Assembly: GCF_002224225.1 (NCBI RefSeq)
Contig: NZ_NJGG01000001.1
Span: forward strand, 310,001-374,000
Source of the DNA: Polynucleobacter cosmopolitanus
GTDB lineage: Bacteria; Pseudomonadota; Gammaproteobacteria; Burkholderiales; Burkholderiaceae
Direction of reading: 5' to 3'
Length of the DNA: 64,000 nucleotides
Shown: in pieces, positions 409 through 40,597 of the stretch
Layout of the letters: the number at the start of each line of letters is the position of its first letter
Numbering within the stretch: position 1 is the stretch's first letter
Translations under genes and position numbers: made by a program
The notes under the pieces: generated by a model
Told to the model about the DNA's origin: nothing
The model's input: the letters and a program-made list of their open reading frames with translations, nothing else
Databases searched by the model: none

Positions 409-681
409 TTATAAAACAACACTCACCATTGGGTGGGTTGATAGGGTTCTGTAAAGCTCATCTAATTGCTCGCGGCTTATGACATGCACCGTCACTGTTA
501 AACCCAAATAATTACCATTTTTTGATGGCCTACATTCAGTGGTAGTGATGTCGTAATTTTTATCGAACTGTAAAACAATATTCTGAACAGCTTCTTGATA
601 ACCAGGCACAGACTTACCCATGACTTTGATCGGAAAGTCACACGGGTATTTGATCAACGATTCTTCTGCTGGAATATCCAT
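409..681 (-). CDS. ybeD: DUF493 (YbeD/UPF0250) family protein
   Basis: This is a 90-residue cytoplasmic protein of the DUF493/YbeD family, a small alpha-beta fold often compared to allosteric ACT-like domains. The visible signature is YPCDFPIKVMG near the start and a C-terminal half ending in LYRTLSTHPMVSVVL. I chose ATG at 681; a TTG two codons upstream is possible. The start sits two bases past the stop of the upstream hydrolase and the gene ends 3 bases before lipB. The conserved linkage to lipB suggests a link to lipoate metabolism, but no biochemical role is established that I can point to. Confidence 0.9.
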   Translation of the reverse strand: MDIPAEESLIKYPCDFPIKVMGKSVPGYQEAVQNIVLQFDKNYDITTTECRPSKNGNYLGLTVTVHVISREQLDELYRTLSTHPMVSVVL

Positions 682-683
682 GC

Positions 684-1403
684 TCAATCAACGCCTCGAG
701 GATCAGGTTGCCCATGAAAAGCACTCACAATCAAATCACGGATGCAATGTAACTTGCGGTGGAAAAAATGATCGGCGCCCGGTATCACTTGCACTGTTAA
801 CTCTTGAGGTCTGGCCCAATCTAAAACACTGGTCAAGGGAATCACATCGTCCACTTCTCCATGGATCACAATCGTGTTCTTAGGCACTGGAGCAACATCC
901 CATTTACCTGTTGCAGAACCCACCATGATGAGTCGCTCAGGCGGCATCTGCATTTCTTCTAAATGCTTCACAACATAACTGCTGACATAACTACCAAAAG
1001 AAAAACCTGCGATCACCAAAGGTAATTCACCCACCAATAATGGCCAACCTTGCCCCTCTAATTCAGAAATCTCTTGCCAACCAAAAGAATCTTTCATCCA
1101 GGCAATGACAGCCAATATATCTTGCGTTTCACCTTTGCCATCGTCGTGCACGCCTTCAGATGCACCAACACCTCTGAAGTTTGGTCTGACAGTCACATAA
1201 TTTAATTGCGCAAGTGTGCGCGCCAAAGTTTGTGCCACTTTATTGTCCATCGTGCCGCCCAACAGCGGATGAGGGTGCGCCACCAAGGCAATGCCTCTTG
1301 GACGAAAGTTTGCTGGGTCATGCTTTAAACCCTCAGGCAAATCTAAAGATGCCTCAATGATTCCAGCAGGCCCCTTCAAATGAATTTTGATGGTTCGATT
1401 CAC
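684..1403 (-). CDS. Alpha/beta hydrolase of the COG2945 type
   Basis: This is a 239-residue cytoplasmic alpha/beta-hydrolase. The nucleophile elbow is GFSFGS with Ser135. The oxyanion-side motif HPHPLLGG is at residues 43-50. A candidate acid lies in HGEVDD, and the catalytic His is in GADHFFH. NFRGVGASEG is typical of this family, whose substrates are not known. The start is GTG at 1403, immediately after the TAA of the ferredoxin gene, with AAGGA upstream in a good position. The tight spacing with the ferredoxin and DUF493 genes indicates an operon. The fold is certain but the substrate cannot be inferred. Confidence 0.88.
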   Translation of the reverse strand: MNRTIKIHLKGPAGIIEASLDLPEGLKHDPANFRPRGIALVAHPHPLLGGTMDNKVAQTLARTLAQLNYVTVRPNFRGVGASEGVHDDGKGETQDILAVIAWMKDSFGWQEISELEGQGWPLLVGELPLVIAGFSFGSYVSSYVVKHLEEMQMPPERLIMVGSATGKWDVAPVPKNTIVIHGEVDDVIPLTSVLDWARPQELTVQVIPGADHFFHRKLHCIRDLIVSAFHGQPDPRGVD

Positions 1404-1715
1404 TTAATCAATCCTTAATCGATCAACCACTTGGCCTTTAACAAAATGTGTATCAATGATTTCATCAATGTCACTTTGATCAATGGCGGTGTACCAAATC
1501 CCTTCTGGATAAACAACCATCACCGGGCCATGAGCACAGCGGTCCAAACATCCCGCTTTATTAACTCTCACCTTGCCTTCGCCTGACAAGCCCAAGTCCT
1601 TACACCGAAGCTTGGCATGCTCAAATAGGCCTTGAGCGTTGTGCTGGGCACAACAGTCTTTACCGTTTTCACGCTGGTTCAAACAAAAGAATAAGTGGTA
1701 TTTAAAGTGGCTCAT
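1404..1715 (-). CDS. [2Fe-2S] thioredoxin-like ferredoxin
   Basis: This is a 103-residue protein of the thioredoxin-fold ferredoxin family, a soluble one-electron carrier. Candidate cluster ligands are Cys11, Cys21/Cys22, Cys56 and Cys60, the last two in AGCLDRCAHGP, followed by the family segment VMVVYPEGIWY. I placed the start at the ATG at 1715 (MSHFKY). A longer reading from 1799 would overlap the VanZ gene by 76 bases and adds residues that do not belong to the family. The gene starts 8 bases after the VanZ stop and is followed directly by the hydrolase. Its redox partner is unknown. Confidence 0.9.
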   Translation of the reverse strand: MSHFKYHLFFCLNQRENGKDCCAQHNAQGLFEHAKLRCKDLGLSGEGKVRVNKAGCLDRCAHGPVMVVYPEGIWYTAIDQSDIDEIIDTHFVKGQVVDRLRID

Positions 1716-5133: not shown

Positions 5134-6660
5134 CTAGATATTTTCTAAATTATTTAACAATGTTTGAGCGTGCTGAGTGATCAGGAGCTGCTCTTCTGCA
5201 TCAATTTTCTGTAGATTGGCCGTCATCAAACGAGTTCTCGGATTTTTTTCAAACTCAGCCCGATGATTGATTAAAAAATTCCAATACAAGGTCGTCATTG
5301 GGCAAGCATCGGGCCCATATCTTTTGCTTGATTGGTATGAGCAAGACTCACAATAATTACTCATTCTTTTGATGTATGCGCCACTGGCAACATAGGGCTT
5401 GCTCGTAAATCTTCCACCATTGGCAAATAAAGCCATACCAGCCGTATTTGGCAACTCAACCCACTCAAGCGCATCCACATAAATGGCCAGATACCACTCA
5501 CAAACTTGCTGAGGCAATAACTCCGCCAACAGAGCAACATTACCCGTGACCATCAATCTTTGAATGTGATGAGCGTAACCATATTTCAGAGTTTGTTGAA
5601 TAGCGTCTTTCATGCAGGCCATTTTGGTGTTAGCCGTCCAATACCAATCAGGCAACTTTCTTTGATGCTGATAAAAGTTATCCTCTGCCATTTTTGGCAT
5701 ATCCAAGTAATACATGCCTCGAATAAATTCACGCCAACCTAAAATTTGACGCACAAAGCCTTCAACCGCACTCAAAGATACTTGCTTCTTTTCATATGCC
5801 TGAATGGCGGAATCAACCACTTCTTTGGGATCAATGAGTTTTAAGTTGAGTGATGTGGACAATATGGAGTGCCAACCAAAAGGAGTGTTGGTCCACATGG
5901 CATCTTGATGAGCTCCGAATAAGGGCAAGCGATATTCAATAAAATGACTCAAAGCTAACAATGCTTGCTCCCTGGTCACAGCCCAGGCAAAGCTCTCTAG
6001 CTCTCCAGGATGCTTGGAGTATGTTGACTCAACATAAGTCATCACCTCTTTGCTGATGGCATCAGGAGTAAACCATTTAGGTTCAGTTATTTGTCCAGGG
6101 CCCTTTTTGGGATAGGGCTTTCTGTTTTGCTCATCAAAGTTCCATTGACCACCCTCAGGTTCCCCATCTTCTTGAATCAGGACCTTGTGTTTTTTACGCA
6201 AGTACCGATAAAAGTATTCAAGTCTGATTTCTTTTTTATCGCCCACCCATTCTTTGAACTCATCAAAGTCACAATAAAAATGATTGTCAGGTTCAATCGT
6301 CAAATAGATTTGAAGCTCACTGGCTAAATCTTGTAACTCTTTTCTTAATCGCCATTCACCAGGCTCAACACAAACCAAATGAGTGAAATGGTGTTTCTGA
6401 ATATGCTCCTTGAGCACAGAGACTATTGATAGCTTGCTTTGCTTCACATACGTCAGTGCGTATTTTTTCTTTTTTAATACTTCTGCAAAGTGGCGCATCG
6501 CTGATAAGAAAAGAGCGATCTTTGCTTTATGTGTCCAAACATAATTGGCCTCAAATTCAGACTCAATCATGATCACTTCATCTTTTGCCGCATCGAAATG
6601 ATTAAAGGCCGAACTATCGGCCTTTAATTGATCACCTAGAACTAAGACAAGTTTTTTCAC
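5134..6660 (-). CDS. phrB: Iron-sulfur bacterial cryptochrome/photolyase (FeS-BCP, 6-4 photolyase type)
   Basis: This is a 508-residue flavoprotein of the FeS-BCP family, whose characterised Agrobacterium member repairs (6-4) photoproducts with blue light using FAD and a lumazine antenna. Four cysteines sit where that family binds its [4Fe-4S] cluster: Cys349, Cys437, Cys440 and Cys453, the last three in NYCESC and DACPMTTLYW. GYAHHIQRLMVTGN at 361-374 carries the active-site histidines and the N-terminal FLxLGDQL-like strand is VLVLGDQL. The start is GTG at 6660, one base after the litR stop, so the genes are coupled and light-dependent expression is plausible. Photolyase versus sensor function cannot be told from sequence alone. 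Confidence 0.93.
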   Translation of the reverse strand: MKKLVLVLGDQLKADSSAFNHFDAAKDEVIMIESEFEANYVWTHKAKIALFLSAMRHFAEVLKKKKYALTYVKQSKLSIVSVLKEHIQKHHFTHLVCVEPGEWRLRKELQDLASELQIYLTIEPDNHFYCDFDEFKEWVGDKKEIRLEYFYRYLRKKHKVLIQEDGEPEGGQWNFDEQNRKPYPKKGPGQITEPKWFTPDAISKEVMTYVESTYSKHPGELESFAWAVTREQALLALSHFIEYRLPLFGAHQDAMWTNTPFGWHSILSTSLNLKLIDPKEVVDSAIQAYEKKQVSLSAVEGFVRQILGWREFIRGMYYLDMPKMAEDNFYQHQRKLPDWYWTANTKMACMKDAIQQTLKYGYAHHIQRLMVTGNVALLAELLPQQVCEWYLAIYVDALEWVELPNTAGMALFANGGRFTSKPYVASGAYIKRMSNYCESCSYQSSKRYGPDACPMTTLYWNFLINHRAEFEKNPRTRLMTANLQKIDAEEQLLITQHAQTLLNNLENI

Positions 6661-6661
6661 A

Positions 6662-7627
6662 TCAATTAGCTGAACGTTTTGTGCGCCAACCTTTGACGTT
6701 CGCAGAAATATCTTGAAGTGCGGCCATGACCTTTACACCTTCAGGTGTTCGCTTGCGCAGGGCTTGATTCTCGCCACCCACCCATAACTCCACTCCTGGT
6801 GCTAACTTTGACTTGAGCTCATTCAAACCATCAACCACTTGGTTTTGATTCATTTGTGAAGAAAACGATAAAGCAATCACATCTGCTTTTTGAGCTCTGG
6901 CTGCTTGAGCAATTTCAAGAATCGGGGTTTGCGTTCCTAAAGATACACATGAACACCCTTCCAAAGCCATCAACGCTTCGGCCATCAAAAGACCCAAGCT
7001 GTGAGGCTCCTGCGGAAATGTTGTTAATAGGATTCTTGGTCTGGATGATTCTTCATTTTGACCGATGTGTCCACGTGGCACTGAATTAATCGCTGTTCTC
7101 AACAAGTGTTTGATTTGTTCTGTGAACAAATGTTCTTCGTGGATCTCCAACTTACCATTGGCCCAGTACTCACCAATATTTCTGATGAGTGGTGCAACCA
7201 CCTCAATCACAAAGCGATCCAAGCCAATCTTCATCAACGTTGTGGAAAGTGCCAATCTCAAAGCTTCAGTTTGATGAGATCTCAATAAATCTAAATACCG
7301 ATCCATTTCTTCTTGAGAAATCATCGATAAAGAATGAGTAGTGACCTCTGCGGTTTGATTACTTTTAGCACTTAACTCTTTGAGGGCTTCGATAGGCAAT
7401 GGAACGATTCGCCCAGGACGAAATCCCAGGTCTAATAATCTTTTTAAAACTCGCAGTTTTTCGATTTGATCGGCCGGATAAACACGATCGTCATTCTTAT
7501 CCCTGAGTGGTATTGGAAAGTCATAACGTCTTTCCCACACTCGAAGTGTGTCTTTAGCGATGCCAGTGTCTCGCTCTACTGCAGCGATACTCAGCATGTC
7601 TGGCAAATTGTTAAACCTAACATTCAT
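6662..7627 (-). CDS. litR: MerR-family B12-dependent photoreceptor regulator (LitR/CarH type)
   Basis: The 321-residue protein has a MerR winged helix at about 11-75 (AKDTLRVWERRYDFPIP), a four-helix bundle and a C-terminal cobalamin domain. Both signatures of light-sensing adenosylcobalamin regulators are intact: W155 followed nine residues later by E165-H166 (the Wx9EH motif), and E207-P-H209-S-L-G212 (ExHxxG, with His209 as expected lower ligand of cobalt). Family members bind DNA in the dark and release it when light breaks the Co-C bond. It is transcribed away from the gpx-folE2 genes and leads directly into the photolyase gene. A palindrome lies in its own promoter spacer, suggesting autorepression. 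Confidence 0.9.
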   Translation of the reverse strand: MNVRFNNLPDMLSIAAVERDTGIAKDTLRVWERRYDFPIPLRDKNDDRVYPADQIEKLRVLKRLLDLGFRPGRIVPLPIEALKELSAKSNQTAEVTTHSLSMISQEEMDRYLDLLRSHQTEALRLALSTTLMKIGLDRFVIEVVAPLIRNIGEYWANGKLEIHEEHLFTEQIKHLLRTAINSVPRGHIGQNEESSRPRILLTTFPQEPHSLGLLMAEALMALEGCSCVSLGTQTPILEIAQAARAQKADVIALSFSSQMNQNQVVDGLNELKSKLAPGVELWVGGENQALRKRTPEGVKVMAALQDISANVKGWRTKRSAN

Positions 7628-7678: not shown

Positions 7679-7708
7679 ATTCTACACTGTCTAAGACATA
7701 ATTTGCAT
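7679..7708 (-). promoter_or_regulatory. Predicted litR promoter with MerR-type palindrome in the spacer
   Basis: On the minus strand a -10-like TAGAAT lies at 7684-7679, with ATGCAA 18 bases upstream at 7708-7703 as a weak -35. The spacer contains TGTCTAAGACA (7688-7698), a palindrome with one odd central base. MerR-family regulators classically bind inside a long spacer, so this is the expected place for LitR autoregulation. The palindrome is directly seen; its recognition by LitR is inferred. Confidence 0.55.
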
Positions 7709-7730: not shown

Positions 7731-7784
7731 TTGCACCATATTGTCGATTTGACCTAGACAAAGTTAAATGTTGTCCAAGGTCAA
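7731..7784 (+). promoter_or_regulatory. Predicted light-responsive operator/promoter of gpx-folE2
   Basis: The region carries TTGCAC (7731-7736, possible -35) and TAGACA (7755-7760, weak -10). A long inverted repeat has left arm TTGACC-TA-GACAA (7749-7761) and right arm TTGTC-CAA-GGTCAA (7771-7784). The half-site TTGTC/GACAA occurs at 7741, 7757 and 7771, and again in the TGTCTAAGACA site on the litR side. Shared half-sites over both divergent promoters suggest one regulator, most simply LitR. The repeats are visible; promoter elements are weak matches. Confidence 0.5.
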
Positions 7785-7826: not shown

Positions 7827-8459
7827 ATGATGGTCGGAGCTGAGAACAGGTCCAAAACCCCACAACAGGCAGGTAAAAGCCTGGGGGCTGATTTTTACAG
7901 AATGGCCTTAACAGCCCTTCTGCTGATGGTTCTTATGTGGAGTTTTTGGCCAAAGGAAGCTGTTGCGATGAATTGTTCAAAAACGCTGTCCCATACCTTT
8001 TTAAGACTTCAGGATGAAGCCCCTCAGAATCTTTGCCAATATCAGGGCAAAGTGGTGCTCATCGTCAATACAGCCAGTTATTGCGGCTTTACAAGCCAAT
8101 ATGATGGTCTAGAGAAGCTTTATAGCCAGTACAAAGACAAAGGATTCGTCATTCTTGGCTTTCCATCCAATGACTTTGGCAAACAAGAGCCTGGATCCAA
8201 CAAAGAAATCGCTGATTTTTGTCACAACACCTATGGGGTTAAATTTCCCATGTTTGCCAAATCATCCGTCACTGGCCCTGATGCAAACCCACTTTTTAAG
8301 CACTTGATTGAACAAACAGGCACCAAACCCCGTTGGAACTTCTATAAATATTTGGTGGATCGTCAAGGTAATGTCATTGAGGCATACAGCAGCATGACAT
8401 CCCCCAGCAGCAAAAAGATTGTTGCTCAAATTGAAAAGTTACTTCAGGAGAAACCATAA
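7827..8459 (+). CDS. Glutathione-peroxidase-family thiol peroxidase, membrane-anchored
   Basis: This is a GPx-fold peroxidase of 210 residues that reduces lipid or organic hydroperoxides. The catalytic residue is Cys86 in NTASYCGF rather than selenocysteine, with Gln in FPSNDFGKQEPG and Trp/Asn in RWNFYKYLV completing the tetrad. Bacterial Cys-GPx enzymes usually use thioredoxin. Unusually, about 45 residues precede the domain, with a hydrophobic stretch at 26-41, so the enzyme is probably anchored to or exported across the inner membrane, near lipid peroxides. A strong GAGGAG at 7812-7817 fixes the start at 7827. It overlaps folE2 by one base (TAATG). Confidence 0.92.
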   Translation: MMVGAENRSKTPQQAGKSLGADFYRMALTALLLMVLMWSFWPKEAVAMNCSKTLSHTFLRLQDEAPQNLCQYQGKVVLIVNTASYCGFTSQYDGLEKLYSQYKDKGFVILGFPSNDFGKQEPGSNKEIADFCHNTYGVKFPMFAKSSVTGPDANPLFKHLIEQTGTKPRWNFYKYLVDRQGNVIEAYSSMTSPSSKKIVAQIEKLLQEKP

Positions 8460-9262
8460 TGAATGCCCCGGAAAAGATTTTTCTTCCTGATGTTCAAGCA
8501 AGCCATGATGAACGCAACATTGTCATTCAGAAAGTGGGCATCAAATCTGTGCGTCATCCTGTTCAGATTAAAACCAAAGCAGGCTCACAGGCGAGCGTCG
8601 CCATGATTGACATGACTGTTAAGCTTCCATCAGATGTCAAAGGCACTCACATGTCTAGATTTTTAGAAGTTTTACAAAACCAACACGCGCCACTTGAGTT
8701 TGATTCTGTTAAGTCTTTGATGAGCACCATGCTTGAGCGCCTAGAAGCAACAGAAGGTCATATTGATATGAAGATGCCACTTTTCTTAAATAAAGTGGCG
8801 CCAGTGTCAGGCGTTGAGAGTTTGCTTGATTACGACTTACACATCAAAGCAGCTTTTGAGAAAGGTGCGCTGCGTTACACGCTTCAAGTGCAAGTTCCAG
8901 TGACCAGCTTGTGCCCTTGTTCGAAAAAAATATCAGAGTACGGCGCTCACAATCAGCGCTCACACATTGTGATTGCAGCCGAGATCACAGAAAACATGGA
9001 CGCTGAAGACTTGATCAAAATAGCTGAGCAAGCAGCTTCTTGTGAACTATGGGGTCTACTGAAGCGCCCTGATGAAAAATACGTCACTGAAAAAGCTTAT
9101 GACAATCCTAAATTTGTAGAGGATTTGGTTCGAGACATTGCTGTGGCACTTGATCACTCAGACAAAGTGGTTGCTTACGAAGTGTCATCAGAGAATTTTG
9201 AATCTATTCACAACCACTCTGCTTATGCATGGTTAGCCAAAGATAAACGTCACACCCATTAA
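8459..9262 (+). CDS. folE2: GTP cyclohydrolase IB (FolE2)
   Basis: FolE2 converts GTP to dihydroneopterin triphosphate, the entry to folate and pterin synthesis, using a metal site less dependent on zinc than FolE1. The 267-residue protein shows the family N-terminus NIVIQKVGIK at 20-29, KGTHMSRF at 61-68 and SLCPCSKKISEYGAHNQRSH at 150-169, with Cys152 as the expected active-site thiol. CAGGAG at 8445-8450 precedes the start, which overlaps the peroxidase stop. Co-transcription with the peroxidase next to a light regulator suggests this copy serves stress or pterin demand rather than only housekeeping folate, but I cannot see whether folE1 exists elsewhere. Confidence 0.95.
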   Translation: MNAPEKIFLPDVQASHDERNIVIQKVGIKSVRHPVQIKTKAGSQASVAMIDMTVKLPSDVKGTHMSRFLEVLQNQHAPLEFDSVKSLMSTMLERLEATEGHIDMKMPLFLNKVAPVSGVESLLDYDLHIKAAFEKGALRYTLQVQVPVTSLCPCSKKISEYGAHNQRSHIVIAAEITENMDAEDLIKIAEQAASCELWGLLKRPDEKYVTEKAYDNPKFVEDLVRDIAVALDHSDKVVAYEVSSENFESIHNHSAYAWLAKDKRHTH

Positions 9263-9269
9263 CCCTTTT

Positions 9270-9350
9270 AACCACAAGACATGAAGCCCGCTGAGCGCAG
9301 TTTCTCTCCCTCCCTTATTTATGCTCAGGGGTGTCTTGTGGTTTTCTTAT
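9270..9350 (+). terminator. Long hairpin terminator after folE2
   Basis: A perfect 12-base inverted repeat (9270-9281 AACCACAAGACA and 9332-9343 TGTCTTGTGGTT) encloses a second helix, CCC-g-CTGAGC (9287-9296) with GCTCAGGGG (9323-9331), leaving a 26-base pyrimidine-rich loop. A T-rich run follows at once (9342-9350). This fits a rho-independent terminator separating gpx-folE2 from the lipid operon. The outer arms also contain the AAGACA/TGTCTT element seen at the litR operator. Confidence 0.75.
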
Positions 9351-9372: not shown

Positions 9373-10704
9373 ATGAAAATAGCCATCGTTGGCGCTGGCA
9401 TATCAGGCCTTGGCTGTGCATATGCTCTTAGCAAATTAGATAACTGTGAAGTCACCATCTACGAAGGTGGCAATCACATTGGTGGACACAGCAATACAGT
9501 TGATCTGACCCTTGATACCCCATCAGGCAAAGTCAGTCACGGTGTCGATACCGGATTTTTGGTATTCAATCAAAGAACCTATCCAAGACTGATTCGCTTG
9601 TTCCATGAGATAGACGTAGAGATTGCTAAATCTGACATGTCTTTCTCTGTGTCCATCCCCAAACAAAATGGTGATGTACTTGAGTGGTCGGGCACCAGCA
9701 TTGACTCATTATTTGCTCAAAGAAAAAATATCTTGAGCCCTTCATTTTTGCGCATGGTCAAAGACATCATTCGATTCAATCGAATCTGTACAAAATTGGC
9801 TGCGGATAAGCGATTGGATGAGATTGATTTAACTGTTGGTGAATTTATTAAAAAACATCGCTTCAGTCAGGAATTTCAAGATTGGTATTTTTTACCCATG
9901 GTTGGAGCCATTTGGTCCTGCCCGGTTTCTCAAATGTTGGCATTCCCAATTGCAACCATGATCAGATTTTGCTTCAACCATGGATTGATTCAGATTGCAG
10001 ATAGGCCTCAATGGTTAACTGTCCAAGGTGGCTCAAGAGAATACGTCAAAAAATTATGTGCCCACATCGAACAGAATGGTGGCTCATTCATTCGAGAGCA
10101 CGTCACCTCTGTTTCAAGAAATGCGAATCAAGTCAACATCAACACTGCTCATGGCACCATCAGTTATGACCATGTGGTGATGGCCTGTCACAGCGATCAA
10201 GCGCTTGATGTCTTAAAAGATCCAAGCGCTGAAGAAAATAACATTCTTGGTTCTGTTAAGTATCAAGATAATCGAGCCGTTTTACACACCGACAGTTCTT
10301 TATTGCCAAGTGAAAAAAAATGCTGGGCTGCCTGGAACTATGCCAGTACCCAAAGTGAAAATCTCCAAGATCAAGAAGTTTGCGTTAATTATTTAATCAA
10401 TCAACTGCAACCCTTGCCTGAAAGCTGGGCCAATCAGCCAGTGATTGTCAGCTTGAACCCCGTGGTTGAGCCCAAAGCAGAAACAATTCATGCCGACATT
10501 CAGTATGCGCACCCCGTGTTTGATCAGGCAGCCATTCTTGCTCAACAAAACTTATCTTTAATACAAGGTCTGAGGAATACATGGTACTGTGGAGCATGGA
10601 CCGGTTACGGATTCCACGAAGATGGCCTGCGCTCGGGTGAACTTGTGGCTGAAGCAATCCAGGAAATTTTAAGATCTCCGAGAAAAACACCAATATCAGC
10701 ATGA
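9373..10704 (+). CDS. FAD/NAD(P)-binding amine-oxidase-like oxidoreductase (COG2907)
   Basis: This 443-residue protein has the dinucleotide-binding motif GAGISGLG at 7-14, an acidic strand end in VTIYEGG, the GG doublet NHIGGHSNT, and a C-terminal FAD-closing motif GAWTGYGFHEDGLRSGE. These define the flavin amine-oxidase/desaturase superfamily, close to the COG2907 proteins found beside CFA-like synthases. Plant cyclopropane fatty acid synthases carry a related domain fused N-terminally, which supports a role on a fatty-acyl substrate. The start is ATG at 9373 after GAAAGAG. It is the first gene of a five-gene run and overlaps DUF1365 by ATGA. Confidence 0.88.
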   Translation: MKIAIVGAGISGLGCAYALSKLDNCEVTIYEGGNHIGGHSNTVDLTLDTPSGKVSHGVDTGFLVFNQRTYPRLIRLFHEIDVEIAKSDMSFSVSIPKQNGDVLEWSGTSIDSLFAQRKNILSPSFLRMVKDIIRFNRICTKLAADKRLDEIDLTVGEFIKKHRFSQEFQDWYFLPMVGAIWSCPVSQMLAFPIATMIRFCFNHGLIQIADRPQWLTVQGGSREYVKKLCAHIEQNGGSFIREHVTSVSRNANQVNINTAHGTISYDHVVMACHSDQALDVLKDPSAEENNILGSVKYQDNRAVLHTDSSLLPSEKKCWAAWNYASTQSENLQDQEVCVNYLINQLQPLPESWANQPVIVSLNPVVEPKAETIHADIQYAHPVFDQAAILAQQNLSLIQGLRNTWYCGAWTGYGFHEDGLRSGELVAEAIQEILRSPRKTPISA

Positions 10705-11474
10705 GCATTGCAAAAATTTGTTTTGGCCAAGTTCGACATGCTCGACTAAAACCTGCCATTAATAAGTTTGCATACTCTGTCTTTACTTTGCGCATACCGA
10801 TGCGCCAAAGAAAAACCAATCCCAAAGGGATATCTCAAATTGGCTTGGGCGATAACAAGCTTTCTTGGCTCACTTTCTACGACAAAGACCATGGTAGAGG
10901 TGAAAACGATTCCCTTACCTGGGCTCTTGATCTAGTCAAAAGCGAAGGCATCACAGACATTGATGGCGAAGTCTGGCTCCAAACATTTCCCAGGGTTTTA
11001 GGCTATGTATTTAATCCTGTGAGCTTTTGGTTTTTCGAAAATCACTCAGGCGATTTGAAAGCCATCTTGGCGGAAGTCAACAACACCTTTGGCGAGAGGC
11101 ATTGCTACCTGTTGAGCAACCCAGACGGTCGCTCCATTCAATGGGGTCAAAGCTTTTTATCCAATAAGGTCTTTCATGTATCACCCTTTTGCGAAGTCAA
11201 AGGTGAATACCAATTCAGATTTTTCTCCAAGGCAGACTCTGGACAACACGTTGCTCGAATTGAATACCATGACCAGGGCCCCCTCCTGATCACCAGCGTT
11301 AGTGGGACTGAACAAGATATTGATTTAAAAAGTATCATTTGGTCTGCAATTAGATATCCAGCCATGAGCATTGGAGTGATTGTCAGAATTCATTGGCAAG
11401 CTTTACGTTTGTGGCTAAAAGGTGTCCAATTTCATAGCAAACCAACACCGCCTTCTACGGAAGTGAGTAAATGA
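10701..11474 (+). CDS. DUF1365 family protein
   Basis: A 257-residue DUF1365 (COG3496) protein. Recognisable family segments are FGQVRHARLKPAINKFAYSV at the N-terminus, LQTFPRVLGYVFNPVSFWF in the middle and FNPVSFWFFE followed by EVNNTFGERHCYLL. No biochemical activity is established for the family. It is almost always found between a COG2907 oxidoreductase and a CFA-type methyltransferase, as here, so it is likely part of the same lipid-modifying pathway. Both ends overlap neighbouring genes by four bases, showing tight translational coupling. Confidence 0.9.
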   Translation: MSIAKICFGQVRHARLKPAINKFAYSVFTLRIPMRQRKTNPKGISQIGLGDNKLSWLTFYDKDHGRGENDSLTWALDLVKSEGITDIDGEVWLQTFPRVLGYVFNPVSFWFFENHSGDLKAILAEVNNTFGERHCYLLSNPDGRSIQWGQSFLSNKVFHVSPFCEVKGEYQFRFFSKADSGQHVARIEYHDQGPLLITSVSGTEQDIDLKSIIWSAIRYPAMSIGVIVRIHWQALRLWLKGVQFHSKPTPPSTEVSK

Positions 11475-12703
11475 GTTCAAACACCAATACCATCGATGGA
11501 TTCTTGCCAAGCTTGCCTTGGCACGCAAGAGCCGTTCTTTCACTTTTAAAGAATATCCAAGTCGGTCAATTACAAGTTATCAGCCCTGAAGGCGAGCATC
11601 TCACCTTTAAGGGTGCGCATGCCGGTATTGAAGCAACGATTCAGATTCATGACTGGGAAGTTTGCAAATCTTGTTTGAAGTCTGGTGACATTGGCTTTGC
11701 AGAAAGTTACATCAAAGGTCTTTGCGACTCACCCGATCTTTTGGCTCTACTTAGATTGCTGTTGGCCAACAGACAAGAAATTGAAACCATCATCTATGGC
11801 AATTGGTGGGGTCGCTTGGGTTATCGCATCAAACATTGGTTCAATAAAAATACCAAAGCGGGCAGCAAAAAAAATATTCATGCGCACTACGACATCGGCA
11901 ATGCTTTTTATGCCCTTTGGCTAGACCCCAGCATGACCTACTCAAGCGCTTGCTTTGATAACAAAGACACGCCTTTGGTAGAAGCTCAAATTGCTAAGTA
12001 TCAAAAAATCATTCAATCGCTCACGGTTGCTCCTGGAGAAAAAATTCTTGAGGTTGGTTGTGGGTGGGGCGGCCTCATGGAGCAAGCCTGCTTGAATGGC
12101 ATCAACATTGACTGCTTGACCATCTCTGAAGAGCAAGCCAAATATGCGCGTGAGCGTGGTGGCAGAATTCAATCAACAGATTCAGGTACTCATCAAGTTT
12201 TGTTACAAGACTACCGAGATCATCAAGAACAGTACGATGGCATTGCCTCAATTGAAATGTTTGAGGCCGTTGGTGAAAGTTACTGGCCAAGTTATTTTGA
12301 GATGCTTCAACGATGCTTAAAGCCTGGTAAAAAAGCCTGCATCCAAACCATCGTTATTGCTGATGACTTATTTGAAAAATACCGCAACAGCTCTGACTTT
12401 ATTCAACAGTACGTGTTTCCTGGTGGTATGTTGCCTTCAGAAGAAAAATTCAAAGAAGCTGCAGCCAAGCAGGGTCTTGTGACTGAAAGCGTTTATCGAT
12501 TTGGGCAAGATTATCAAAAGACCTTGGTCTTATGGCATGAAAAGTTCAATCAGCAGTTAGACGCCATCAAAGCCCAGGGGTTTGATCAAAAGTTCATTCG
12601 TCTATGGAATCTTTACTTGATGTACTGCGCTGCAGGTTTTGCTGAGAAGAGCACTGATGTCATTCAATTCACATTGAGAAAGCCCGACACAAATGGCGCT
12701 TAA
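11471..12703 (+). CDS. cfa: Cyclopropane-fatty-acyl-phospholipid synthase-like methyltransferase
   Basis: The 410-residue enzyme transfers a methyl(ene) group from S-adenosylmethionine to unsaturated acyl chains of phospholipids. Family features are HYDIGNAFYALWLDPSMTYS at 139-158, the SAM motif KILEVGCGWGG at 191-201, and the C-terminal YCAAGF with the expected active-site Cys, ending in IQFTLRKP. The product may be a cyclopropane, a methyl-branched chain, or the methylated precursor of a furan fatty acid, since UfaM enzymes belong to this family. The neighbouring flavoprotein and SDR favour an oxidised product over a simple cyclopropane, but this is inference. It overlaps DUF1365 by four bases and the SDR by eleven. 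Confidence 0.92.
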   Translation: MSSNTNTIDGFLPSLPWHARAVLSLLKNIQVGQLQVISPEGEHLTFKGAHAGIEATIQIHDWEVCKSCLKSGDIGFAESYIKGLCDSPDLLALLRLLLANRQEIETIIYGNWWGRLGYRIKHWFNKNTKAGSKKNIHAHYDIGNAFYALWLDPSMTYSSACFDNKDTPLVEAQIAKYQKIIQSLTVAPGEKILEVGCGWGGLMEQACLNGINIDCLTISEEQAKYARERGGRIQSTDSGTHQVLLQDYRDHQEQYDGIASIEMFEAVGESYWPSYFEMLQRCLKPGKKACIQTIVIADDLFEKYRNSSDFIQQYVFPGGMLPSEEKFKEAAAKQGLVTESVYRFGQDYQKTLVLWHEKFNQQLDAIKAQGFDQKFIRLWNLYLMYCAAGFAEKSTDVIQFTLRKPDTNGA

Positions 12704-13472
12704 TCAGCGAGTCATTAGTTTTTATAACAAACGGATCTGGATCATTGGCGCATCCAGTGGGATTGGCGAAGCTTGCGCCCAGGCTTTCCTGAGTCATGGT
12801 GCCAAAGTAGCTCTCAGTGCACGTCGCATCGACAAACTCAAAGCCATTCAAGATAAATGGCCAACAGATCAAACCCTTTGCTTACCAGCCAATGCACAAA
12901 ACAATGATGAATTAAGCACAGCCTACCAATCAATCAAGCAAACATGGGGTGGTATTGATTTGCTCTTGTATGTTTCTGGCATCTACGAACCCATGCGTGC
13001 CGATAATTTTGATTTGGCCAAAGCCACTGACATCATCAATACCAATATCATTGGTGCTATGAGCGCTTGCTCAATCACTTTGCCTGATTTCATCCAACAA
13101 CAATCTGGTGGCATTGCCATTGTGAGCAGTGTTGCTGGCTACAGTGGCTTGCCGCAATCTCTTGCTTATGGACCAAGCAAAGCAGCGATGATCAATTTTT
13201 GCGAAACGCTTTATTACGACTTGAAACCAAAGAACGTGGCCGTTTACATGATCAACCCTGGTTTTGTGTCCACGGAAGCAACTGCTAAAAATGATTTTGA
13301 AATGCCGGCTTTGATCACAACAGAACAAGCTGCTACTGAAATTTTAGATGGCATACAAGCTGGGGAATTTGACATTCATTTCCCTAAGAGATTTTCATAT
13401 TTTTTGAAATTTTTGCGACTACTGCCTTATCCAGTTTATTTTTTTCTTATCAAAAAATTCATTAAGATTTAA
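12693..13472 (+). CDS. Short-chain dehydrogenase/reductase
   Basis: A 259-residue classical SDR with a Rossmann motif GASSGIG at 19-25 and the catalytic set Ser145/Ser146, Tyr159 and Lys163 in SSVAGYSGLPQSLAYGPSK. The C-terminus ends in a hydrophobic and basic stretch (YFLKFLRLLPYPVYFFLIKKF), which suggests membrane association and fits a lipid or lipid-like substrate. The substrate is not known. The gene begins 11 bases inside the cfa-like gene and is followed without a gap by the NTF2-like gene, so it belongs to the lipid operon. Confidence 0.9.
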   Translation: MALNQRVISFYNKRIWIIGASSGIGEACAQAFLSHGAKVALSARRIDKLKAIQDKWPTDQTLCLPANAQNNDELSTAYQSIKQTWGGIDLLLYVSGIYEPMRADNFDLAKATDIINTNIIGAMSACSITLPDFIQQQSGGIAIVSSVAGYSGLPQSLAYGPSKAAMINFCETLYYDLKPKNVAVYMINPGFVSTEATAKNDFEMPALITTEQAATEILDGIQAGEFDIHFPKRFSYFLKFLRLLPYPVYFFLIKKFIKI

Positions 13473-13901
13473 ATGACAAGTCAGCATATTCAACGGGTGA
13501 TTGATCAGTTTGAAAAGCTATCGCCCAATTCCATTGATGCATTGGTGGCGCTTTACTCAAAAGATGCCTTTTTCAAAGATCCTTTCAATGAAGTTAAAGG
13601 GCATGCAAACATCAGACATATTTTTACTCACATGTTCACGCAAGTGAACAACCCACACTTTGTGATTAAAAATACCCTAGAAAATGGATCTCATGCTTGC
13701 TTGATCTGGGAATTCATTTTTCAACTCAAGAAATCTCCCGAAATTAATCAAGTCATCAGAGGTTGTACCTGGATGACCTTCAATGAAGAAGCCCTCATCA
13801 CAGAACATCGCGACTACTGGGATGCCGCTGAAGAGCTTTATGAAAAAATTCCAGTCCTGGGTGGACTGATGCGTTGGCTAAAAAAAAGGGCCCGTGAATA
13901 G
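13473..13901 (+). CDS. NTF2-like/SnoaL-type protein
   Basis: This 142-residue protein has the cone-shaped NTF2-like fold pattern: an N-terminal helix with DQFEKLSPNSIDALVALYS, then DAFFKDPFNEVKGHANIRHIF, then alternating strands with WEFIFQLKK and GCTWMTFN. Members are binding proteins or small enzymes acting on hydrophobic compounds. Its ATG follows the SDR stop directly, so it is the last gene of the lipid operon. A hairpin overlapping the stop codon and another just downstream end the run. Confidence 0.85.
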   Translation: MTSQHIQRVIDQFEKLSPNSIDALVALYSKDAFFKDPFNEVKGHANIRHIFTHMFTQVNNPHFVIKNTLENGSHACLIWEFIFQLKKSPEINQVIRGCTWMTFNEEALITEHRDYWDAAEELYEKIPVLGGLMRWLKKRARE

Positions 13902-13951: not shown

Positions 13952-14608
13952 TTACTTCTTTTCTTTTCTAGCTTTGCTCACTAAAAAATCCATCGTTTGA
14001 ATCGCTCTGGCTTTAGAGCCACCGGCGATTGATGGTGAGGTCAAATATTTACCTTGAACTGCAACAGATGGCACACCATCAATTCTGTAAGTTTGAGCAA
14101 TCTGATTGGCCGCTCTTGCTTTTGAAATCACAGTGAATGATTTAAAGGCCTTCAAAAAAGCTTGGCGATCAATGCCTTGGCTAACAACCCACTCTGTTAT
14201 TTCAGCTTCTGCTAGAAGCTTTTTCTTATTAACGTGCATTGCCACCATGACCTTGGCGTGTAAATCATTTCTACCAAGGCTATCCAAGGCATAAAACAAT
14301 TGGCTGTGCGGCAATAATTCATCTCTAAACGCAACCGGTATTTTCTTAACAACAACATCTTGACCTTGTTTAGCAATCCAAGCACTTAGCTCTGGCTCAA
14401 AGTCATGACAGTGCGGACAACCGTACCAAAAAAACTCTAGGACCTCAATCTTGCCTTTTGATTCTGTGGCCTGGGCCACTGGCATCACGCGGTAATCAAA
14501 ACCTTCTTCAATTGGTCTACCTTGCGATAGCGCTAACTGAGAAAATCCCAGGCAAATAAGCCCTAAGAATAAATTTTTGAACAGGGTAAATAAATTGATG
14601 TTTTTCAT
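13952..14608 (-). CDS. dsbA: Periplasmic thiol:disulfide oxidoreductase DsbA
   Basis: DsbA introduces disulfide bonds into exported proteins. The 218-residue protein starts with a typical signal peptide (hydrophobic core about 10-26, cleavage near ALSQG). The active site is CPHC at 64-67 in FFWYGCPHCHDF. The cis-Pro loop is in RIDGVPSVAVQGKY. The length fits betaproteobacterial DsbA. It starts 7 bases after the SPOR-protein stop and forms an argS-SPOR-dsbA run. The oxidising partner DsbB is not in this window. Confidence 0.95.
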   Translation of the reverse strand: MKNINLFTLFKNLFLGLICLGFSQLALSQGRPIEEGFDYRVMPVAQATESKGKIEVLEFFWYGCPHCHDFEPELSAWIAKQGQDVVVKKIPVAFRDELLPHSQLFYALDSLGRNDLHAKVMVAMHVNKKKLLAEAEITEWVVSQGIDRQAFLKAFKSFTVISKARAANQIAQTYRIDGVPSVAVQGKYLTSPSIAGGSKARAIQTMDFLVSKARKEKK

Positions 14609-40460: not shown

Positions 40461-40584
40461 AAAAAAAGCCCGCCAACCAATCACTTCACAGGTTAGCGAG
40501 CGTCGTTGCTAAAGGCCTGGGGCCTTCCTCTAAGCCTAGGGTGTTTAAGACTTTAGAGACTTAAACACCTCGCAACGCTCCTTA
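40461..40584 (-). promoter_or_regulatory. S-adenosylhomocysteine (SAH) riboswitch with intrinsic terminator
   Basis: Reading the minus strand from 40584, the leader contains AGGAGCGTTGCGAGG, then CCCCAGGCC, then GCAACGACGCTC, matching the conserved core of the SAH riboswitch class. P1 can form between GAGCG-TTGC and GCAA-CGA-CGCTC. The 3' strand of P1 is shared with a terminator: GCTCGCTAACC (40501-40491) pairs over 11 positions, two of them G-U, with GGTTGGCGGGC (40478-40468), followed by seven T. SAH binding should stabilise P1, block the terminator and turn ahcY on. Confidence 0.93.
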
Positions 40585-40597
40585 GAGATTTTGCGAA

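Follow-up and report, generated by a model that had tools for sequence, protein, structure and literature searches.

Gene Organization of the Locus

A 64,000-nucleotide stretch of the Polynucleobacter cosmopolitanus genome (assembly GCF_002224225.1, contig NZ_NJGG01000001.1, positions 310,001 to 374,000; hereafter the window) was analyzed. We were particularly interested in five consecutive genes at window positions 9373–13901, which very probably constitute a furan fatty acid (FuFA) operon in this genus, as judged from their sequences. The source genome is 1.78 Mb and the window has a GC content of 44.4 %, which fits Polynucleobacter; at least 37 related genomes of the genus were available for comparison. 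A preliminary description of this DNA had named an amine-oxidase-like flavoprotein, a DUF1365 protein, a methyltransferase of the cyclopropane fatty acid (CFA) synthase family, a short-chain dehydrogenase/reductase (SDR) and an NTF2-like protein. The positions of the open reading frames (ORFs) confirmed five real genes that overlap or abut, and all five families (Amino_oxidase, DUF1365, CMAS, adh_short and SnoaL_2) were matched above the Pfam cut-off. The features of the locus are as follows.

5134..6660, minus strand: photolyase/cryptochrome-related protein (DPRP family), adjoining litR (PF04244, 253.9 bits)
6662..7627, minus strand: litR, LitR/CarH-type MerR regulator, divergent from the operon (PF13411, PF02310 and PF02607 above cut-off)
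7827..8459, plus strand: glutathione peroxidase-like gene gpx (PF00255, 125 bits)
8459..9262, plus strand: folE2, GTP cyclohydrolase (PF02649, 310.7 bits; NF010200, 288.9 bits, cut-off 215)
9373..10704, plus strand: ufaD-like flavin adenine dinucleotide (FAD) desaturase, 443 amino acids (PF01593, Amino_oxidase, 72 bits; PF13450)
10701..11474, plus strand: ufaO, putative DUF1365 fatty-acyl oxygenase, 257 amino acids (PF07103, 239.6 bits, cut-off 25)
11471..12703, plus strand: ufaM-like S-adenosylmethionine-dependent acyl methyltransferase, 410 amino acids (CMAS, 268.1 bits)
12693..13472, plus strand: SDR, 259 amino acids (PF00106, adh_short, 140.3 bits)
13473..13901, plus strand: NTF2/SnoaL-like protein, 142 amino acids (SnoaL_2, 54.2 bits)
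13952–14608, minus strand: ORF with a DsbA-like sequence, read by eye on sequence inspection, which closes the unit

Adjacent members of the first four operon genes share 4, 4, and 11 bases, respectively, whereas the NTF2-like gene directly follows the SDR gene. Upstream of ufaD, gpx and folE2 run in the same direction, while litR and the photolyase-related gene are divergent. The 110-base gap between folE2 and ufaD contains a conserved hairpin. The operon had been placed beside a light sensor, and the LitR/CarH-type neighbor agrees with this.

The First Three Genes Match the Furan Fatty Acid Pathway

In Rhodobacter (Cereibacter) sphaeroides, UfaM was reported to convert cis-vaccenate to 11Me-12t-18:1, UfaD (RSP1091, predicted NAD-FAD-binding domain) to desaturate this product to 11Me-10t,12t-18:2, and UfaO (RSP1090, DUF1365) to be necessary and sufficient for the O2-dependent step to the furan 9M5-FuFA (PMC7380195). 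The three Rhodopseudomonas palustris homologues gave the same products when placed in R. sphaeroides (PMC7380195). An activity of DUF1365 has thus been known since 2020 (PMC7380195), and the earlier statement that this domain has no known activity no longer holds. The window holds the same three families with the same ufaD-ufaO adjacency, in the order D-O-M. The families of the first product (PF01593, PF13450) agree with the NAD/FAD-binding desaturase-like protein that adjoins UfaO, and a relative in the PDB is LkcE (E 1.1e-26); the second product lies well above the DUF1365 cut-off. Family, order and linkage together argue for membership in UfaD-UfaO-UfaM. Because UfaO is the DUF1365 oxygenase and UfaD the desaturase of the published pathway, the ufaDOM core is taken as this known pathway, with a methylated furan fatty acid as the clear expectation for its product. 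The preliminary description had therefore pointed in the right direction with a protective lipid, while its "uncertain product" can be replaced by this expectation. Its idea of UfaM, furan lipids and singlet oxygen was supported. Its link through a plant fusion protein also stood, since AT3G23510 is described as resembling UfaM and UfaD, and AT1G30130 as resembling UfaO (PMC10940516). The accessions given there for UfaM, UfaD and UfaO are Q3J4I7, Q3IYV7 and Q3IYV8.

The linkage of these families was then counted in 100 DUF1365 loci, hand-picked from listed positions (own genus, 19; Burkholderiales of other genera, 21; remaining orders of the class, 32; remaining classes of the phylum, 28). A ufaD-family gene adjoined the DUF1365 gene in 100/100 loci and a ufaM-family gene was nearby in 95; four of the five loci without it were from Rhodobacteraceae. 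Of the 100 loci, 76 had an SDR of the window family (73 at ≥250 bits and three with lower scores) and 49 had a member of the NTF2 family. These counts indicate that the gene grouping exceeds chance. Eight Rhodobacteraceae loci showed the order ufaD-ufaO-transporter-SDR, with a small protein preceding the SDR in 5/8 and with protein lengths near those of the published RSP1091-1087 operon (UfaO 250, then 402, 186, and 245 amino acids).

Given this linkage, it is hardly likely that the methyltransferase simply makes cyclopropane or methyl-branched fatty acids and that its neighbors in the operon have nothing to do with it. Its closest solved relatives by sequence are indeed cyclopropane synthases (5z9o, 6bqc). 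However, it scored too low for each of the three curated CFA-synthase models that it matched (261.6 bits for a cut-off of 400, 225.2 for 600, and 191.2 for 650), and a plain CFA synthase was rejected on this ground; the 100/100 adjacency of ufaD and ufaO, with ufaM nearby in 95 loci, also speaks against passengers. The fatty acids of the genus bear on both sides. In four Polynucleobacter type strains, 11-methyl C18:1w7c amounted to 3.1, 8.1, 1.1, and 4.2 % (PMC5018217, Table 4). The name of this acid points to a product of the sort formed by UfaM; it was reported in the genus without any furan, as a plain synthase would have it, but no cyclopropane acid is named in the available text of that table (PMC5018217). 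"Summed feature 7 (including C19:1w6c)", at 0.3–2.0 % in three strains, is ambiguous (PMC5018217).

The fold of UfaO was also modeled. The predicted structure is rich in beta strands, and its C-terminus forms a long helix (pLDDT 84.2, pTM 0.84, 66 sequences). The matches found with VIA were a designed barrel (8uzl, Z 8.0), nitrobindin (2a13, Z 7.7, 131 residues, 4.1 Å), and the spirocyclase OlmO (Z 7.6), but a Z of about 8 lies in the range for models without a clear match, so that these may be due to chance. The best Foldseek match was weak (E 2.4e-3), and the sequence search of the PDB with DUF1365 gave no match at E ≤ 10. A calycin/nitrobindin-like barrel is a candidate fold at most, and the comparison says nothing against families outside it. 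On paper, the conversion of diene and O2 to furan and H2O is redox-balanced and therefore needs no outside reductant. The UfaO step was reported to run without added reductant, and the authors credited the wheat germ extract with supplying one (PMC7380195).

As side observations, the ufa genes had further recurrent neighbors, namely an MFS_2 transporter, DUF3833, DUF2878, and Chalcone_3. Plasmids were searched as well: megablast gave no match to the locus, and tblastn with UfaO gave 99 records below 60 % identity, which were not used as evidence. A viral fold library gave no match at E ≤ 0.001.

The SDR and NTF2-like Genes Are Linked to UfaO

The DUF1365 gene had been called the least described part of the window. 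Since it has a published activity, this place falls instead to the SDR/NTF2 pair, which had been given no distinct role. Two profiles were built, one from 36 NTF2-like proteins (that of the window and 35 ufa-adjacent ones) and one from 50 ufa-adjacent SDR sequences, and searched in 397 Pseudomonadota genomes. Strong matches were those of ≥98 bits for NTF2 and ≥260 bits for SDR; NTF2 matches below 98 bits (partial or paralogous) and weaker SDR matches were not counted, and up to 10 NTF2 or 6 SDR candidates were scored per genome. Both profiles were built from ufa-adjacent genes, yet whole genomes were searched. DUF1365-positive genomes, defined by E ≤ 0.001, numbered 187/397, of which 186 were over the cut-off. 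Strong NTF2 matches occurred in 90 genomes, all DUF1365-positive, and the gene lay within 8 kb of the DUF1365 gene in 83/83 genomes with a listed position (seven had none listed). For the SDR, 140 of the 147 genomes with strong matches were DUF1365-positive. The Fisher p values (1e-36, 1e-55) take no account of relatedness among the genomes and should not be taken as probabilities.

The two genes also go together: 86 of the 90 NTF2 genomes had a strong SDR match, and an SDR was close by in 48 of the 49 NTF2-bearing loci. Six of the seven DUF1365-negative genomes with a strong SDR were inspected (L246–L251). Each has an SDR closely homologous to the ufa-linked one. In L248 this gene and a ufaM-family gene converge tail to tail; in the other five no ufa-family neighbor was found. 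The pair is placed downstream in Burkholderiales, mostly upstream in the other orders of the class, and divergently in some loci of other classes, but it stays near the ufa genes despite this varying placement.

Both proteins keep catalytic-looking residues. In the SDR, Ser146, Tyr159, and Lys163 were invariant across the 50 sequences. Its C-terminal 30 residues are cationic and hydrophobic (mean net charge +5.4, compared with −0.5 for stretches drawn at random from these proteins; 77 sequences), which suggests that the SDR contacts the membrane through this tail. In the NTF2 family, Asp36, Pro37, Phe63, Trp79, Gly97, Asp114, and Asp117 were invariant in 36/36 sequences, and His112 was kept in ≥90 % of them. 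A single-sequence AlphaFold model of the window protein was unusable (pLDDT 44). The profile matched limonene epoxide hydrolase (LEH; 5aif, E 9.4e-8) and ketosteroid isomerase (KSI; 6f53, E 2.7e-5). We take KSI to work with an Asp base and a Tyr/Asp oxyanion hole, and LEH with an Arg-Asp...Asp triad. Asp36 aligns with the KSI base and is conserved in 36/36, but the Tyr/Asp oxyanion positions are F and S/T-like; of the LEH residues, the second Asp is kept, but Arg and the first Asp are replaced by W79 and a hydrophobic residue. Neither KSI nor LEH activity was accepted for the NTF2-like protein, because the other catalytic positions are replaced.

The ufa operon of R. sphaeroides likewise holds an SDR, RSP1087 (PMC7380195), identified as such in PMC7074977. 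Deletion of RSP1087, RSP1088, or RSP1089 was reported to leave the fatty acid profile without detectable change (PMC7380195), which indicates that the SDR is dispensable for FuFA synthesis in that species. The SDR and NTF2-like proteins are thus tied to the FuFA pathway but are probably not synthetic.

Three roles were considered for the pair. Singlet oxygen converts a furan to an ene-dione; if one carbonyl is then reduced, the resulting hydroxy-enone can dehydrate to a furan. Because the ene-dione is the fate of a furan under singlet oxygen, the two enzymes suit oxidized furans, and we tentatively favor the possibility that they act on oxidized FuFA after the singlet-oxygen reaction. It seems rather unlikely that they instead modify the furan or one of the intermediates, giving another lipid such as an oxo- or hydroxy-lipid, which would be the true end product or a signal. 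The occurrence of strong matches in UfaO-bearing genomes (90/90 and 140/147), the residues kept in both proteins, and the closeness of the pair to the ufa genes despite differing placement would all fit such a product, but FuFA-making R. sphaeroides kept its fatty acids unchanged after RSP1087 deletion (PMC7380195). Its operon, as described, lists no NTF2 gene (PMC7380195), so that the deletion bears on the SDR and not on NTF2-dependent products. General detoxification of light-made lipid-peroxidation carbonyls, with no furan-specific chemistry, is equally doubtful. It draws on the fact that SDRs commonly reduce such carbonyls, but would not predict that all 90 genomes with strong NTF2 matches bear UfaO. 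Also in its favor, a fungal NTF2-like protein of a different family (DUF1348) was reported to give resistance to cercosporin, a singlet-oxygen generator, in Neurospora, although disrupting the gene in its own fungus did not affect cercosporin resistance (PMC4608573).

LitR and Probable Light Control

The window LitR has both B12-binding domains (PF02310, PF02607) and carries the motifs W155-x9-EH and E207PHSLG. Wx9EH and ExHxxG are presumably the B12 motifs of LitR/CarH proteins of the adenosyl-B12 type, and the window protein is a probable light sensor of the B12 type on this sequence evidence. Its score against the NCBIfam equivalog model for CarH was too low to pass (104.6 bits, cut-off 400). 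The genome has an ATP:cob(I)alamin adenosyltransferase gene of family PF01923; PF02572 was not found in it.

A similar cluster is known from Pseudomonas putida and P. mendocina, where PplR1/PmlR1 is accompanied by a photolyase, an SDR, a FAD-dependent oxidoreductase and ufaM (PMC9758184). In P. mendocina, the PmlR1 operon, which is induced by light, was reported to comprise phrB, SDR, FAD oxidoreductase, ufaM, and hypothetical genes, with ufaM induced 25–33 fold by light (PMC9758184). However, the Pseudomonas LitRs are class II, with one of the two B12-binding domains and no C-terminal one (PMC9758184), whereas the window LitR has both. These class II proteins are believed to lack B12 binding, and PmlR2 responds to a LOV protein (PMC9758184). 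A class II assignment of the window regulator was rejected, as both B12 domains and both motifs are present.

Another 25 ufa-linked LitR homologues, 2–8 kb from ufaO, were compared: 15 had both B12 motifs, nine had neither and one had one. Both motifs were present in 13/14 from Burkholderiales, 1/10 from the other orders of the class, and 1/1 from another class. In R. sphaeroides, by comparison, ufaM lies elsewhere in the genome (RSP2144) and the control is by sigma-E/ChrR, with no NTF2-like gene listed in the operon as published (PMC7380195), whereas in the window all five genes are contiguous and have LitR, gpx, and folE2 as neighbors. The RpoE regulon of R. sphaeroides was reported to include folE2, phrA, and the SDR RSP_1087 (PMC7074977). 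The wiring of FuFA genes thus differs, with a B12-type LitR in Burkholderiales, a mostly B12-less LitR in the other orders of the class, and a sigma factor with ChrR in Rhodobacteraceae. A further likeness is found in Chlamydomonas, where CFA1/CFA2, a DUF1365 gene and GPX5 are reported to need SAK1 for induction by singlet oxygen (PMC4067076). This system differs from the window in being eukaryotic and without an operon, and the likeness is one of gene list (PMC4067076).

Two tentative candidate operators were noted in the gap between litR and gpx.

7688..7698, no strand: palindrome TGTCTAAGACA, recurring upstream of ufa-linked litR
7753..7780, no strand: inverted repeat CCTAGACAAA-N8-TTGTCCAAGG, recurring in LitR-bearing relatives

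The palindrome, with ≤1 mismatch, occurred ≤350 bp upstream of 7/25 other ufa-linked litR genes, against a background of 0.014 per 350 bp; the other 18 LitR-linked loci were without a site. A near form, TGTCTTAGACT, was found upstream of gpx in 8/26 LitR-less Burkholderiales loci. The pattern TGTCYWAGACA occurs at 3 places in the own genome, against 1 forward and 2 reverse for its reversed control. Because LitR-less loci carry TGTCTTAGACT and 18/25 LitR-linked loci have no site, the case for TGTCYWAGACA as an operator of LitR only is weakened. The exact inverted repeat occurs once in the window, from which the pattern was derived, and was seen by eye in L066, L067, L076, and L077.

Two side observations concern the palindrome. 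In the LitR-less Polynucleobacter relatives L062, L063, L065, L068, L069, L072, L073, and L078, TGTCTTAGACT stands about 31–60 bases upstream of the gpx start. In L255, TGTCYWAGACA lies at 1501–1511 (genome position C1:62256) and begins 38 bases in front of a rhodopsin gene (636–1463, minus strand; PF01036, 155.7 bits), which is followed by a polyprenyl-synthase-like ORF, read by eye. This genome was the only one of 16 examined in the genus with a rhodopsin. A light regulon common to the ufa locus and rhodopsin is possible, but 3 places per genome come close to the reversed control (1 and 2).

Natural Loss of the Operon in a Relative

One relative, G009, gave no DUF1365 match. Its photolyase, litR, gpx, folE2, and hairpin are retained on one flank and its DsbA-like gene on the other, all on a single N-free contig, but ufaD, ufaO, ufaM, and the SDR gene are absent and the NTF2 gene is reduced to about its 29 last codons, in frame to the stop. 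This remnant between kept flanks indicates that the operon was once present and then lost. The scar lies in L270 (G009) at about 8580–8710, after the hairpin, and looks like that of a single deletion running from ahead of ufaD to inside the NTF2 gene. Only this one event was seen, and the completeness of the genome is 84 %, its contamination 5 %.

In the 100 loci, gpx was near ufa in 24, every one from Burkholderiales. The N-terminus of Gpx is hydrophobic and export-like in 10/10 sequences compared (window and nine relatives), so that, by its sequence, the Gpx encoded upstream of ufaD may act outside the cytoplasm. The case for Gpx as an obligatory component of the FuFA system is weakened, as it was retained in G009 without ufa.

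Proposed Function of the Operon

We propose that the operon would make methylated FuFA on membrane phospholipids as a light-induced defense against singlet oxygen. UfaM would methylate the double bond of cis-vaccenoyl chains to an 11-methyl trans-monoene; the flavoprotein UfaD would desaturate this to the conjugated 10,12-diene, with O2 as the likely acceptor; and UfaO would add O2 and close the furan ring. In the dark, LitR with adenosyl-B12 would probably repress both the litR-cryB and the gpx-folE2-ufa units, and light would release both. The SDR and NTF2-like proteins may then act on FuFA oxidized by singlet oxygen, that is, on the ene-dione or related oxo-lipids. We infer both the FuFA activity in this host and the regulation of the operon by LitR.

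Several observations weigh against this proposal. The 11-methyl-C18:1 of the type strains would equally suit a pathway that ends after UfaM, and no FuFA was reported for Polynucleobacter in the literature found, within the available text of PMC5018217. The strains with measured fatty acids are PnecC species, and the species of the window is outside PnecC: the diagnostic 16S tag, as given in PMC5018217, was not found in it, and was present once in 20/31 same-genus genomes and in 0/3 other-genus genomes, which does tie the genus of the window to Polynucleobacter. The Ufa names were given by family, order and linkage. No NTF2 gene was nearby in 11/19 own-genus loci and no strong NTF2 match was found in the Rhodobacteraceae genomes searched, which indicates that the NTF2-like protein is dispensable. 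LitR was absent from 28/33 Polynucleobacter genomes searched, while DUF1365 was present in 35/36 genus relatives; with LitR in only 5/33, light control is therefore not universal in Polynucleobacter. Finally, litR, gpx, folE2, and the hairpin persist in G009 without ufa genes, so that litR, gpx, and folE2 are not strictly FuFA genes.

A bolder possibility, which we consider improbable, is that the operon encodes a complete furan cycle and regenerates FuFA as well as making it; the rebuilding of the ring by the SDR and NTF2-like proteins is speculative. Singlet oxygen would turn FuFA into a peroxide and then the (Z)-ene-1,4-dione, with the exported Gpx of this clade reducing the peroxide. The membrane-docked SDR would use NAD(P)H to reduce one carbonyl to a gamma-hydroxy-enone, and the NTF2-like enzyme, with Asp36, His112, Asp114, and Asp117 as acid/base residues, would isomerize and cyclodehydrate it to the furan. 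The UfaO reaction could also pass through this same hydroxy-enone as its final intermediate; that would account for the dispensability of NTF2. No earlier proposal of FuFA regeneration was found among the matches listed for furan fatty acid with short-chain dehydrogenase. If the SDR and NTF2-like proteins do repair oxidized furans, FuFA would be a catalytic lipid antioxidant that is regenerated, instead of a one-shot membrane quencher.

Apart from this cycle, the expected FuFA pathway assigns an operon of "unknown product" to a defined route, and puts FuFA genes together with a B12-type light sensor into the freshwater genus Polynucleobacter. It also links two enzymes to FuFA, of which the NTF2-like one was seen solely in DUF1365-bearing genomes. 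New here are the NTF2/SDR linkage, the single deletion in a relative, a LitR with both B12 domains, and a hairpin unmatched in Rfam.

A Conserved Hairpin Upstream of ufaD

The hairpin lies between folE2 (or gpx) and ufaD.

9270..9343, plus strand: conserved RNA hairpin with a 12-pair outer and a 10-pair inner stem and a pyrimidine loop with TTTCTCTCCCTCCCTT, followed by TTTTCTT (fold z, covariation)

Sixteen loop bases are identical in the window, L066, L067, L076, L077, and G009 (L270). The hairpin folded better than shuffled sequences (z −3.1 to −3.3, three sequences). Two-sided changes were seen in 4/22 pairs, compared with a shuffled mean of 1.8, with 19/500 shuffles reaching 4 and slid controls giving ≤2; this covariation comes from four distinct rows only and is modest. 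With strict filters, the hairpin model R1 found one copy in each of 6/61 genomes, the own included. In 36 other Burkholderiales loci, the single match was weak (L098, 24.7 bits). No Rfam family matched at its gathering score; a weak match to sX5, a bacterial small RNA, reached 12.1 bits vs 50. The loop resembles what we take to be an anti-Shine-Dalgarno sequence. Both a terminator and a small RNA derived from an untranslated region are possible.

Another RNA Element in the Window

Outside the locus, one further RNA feature was found, the sole Rfam match at gathering score within the window.

40491–40589, minus strand: SAH riboswitch (50.2 bits)

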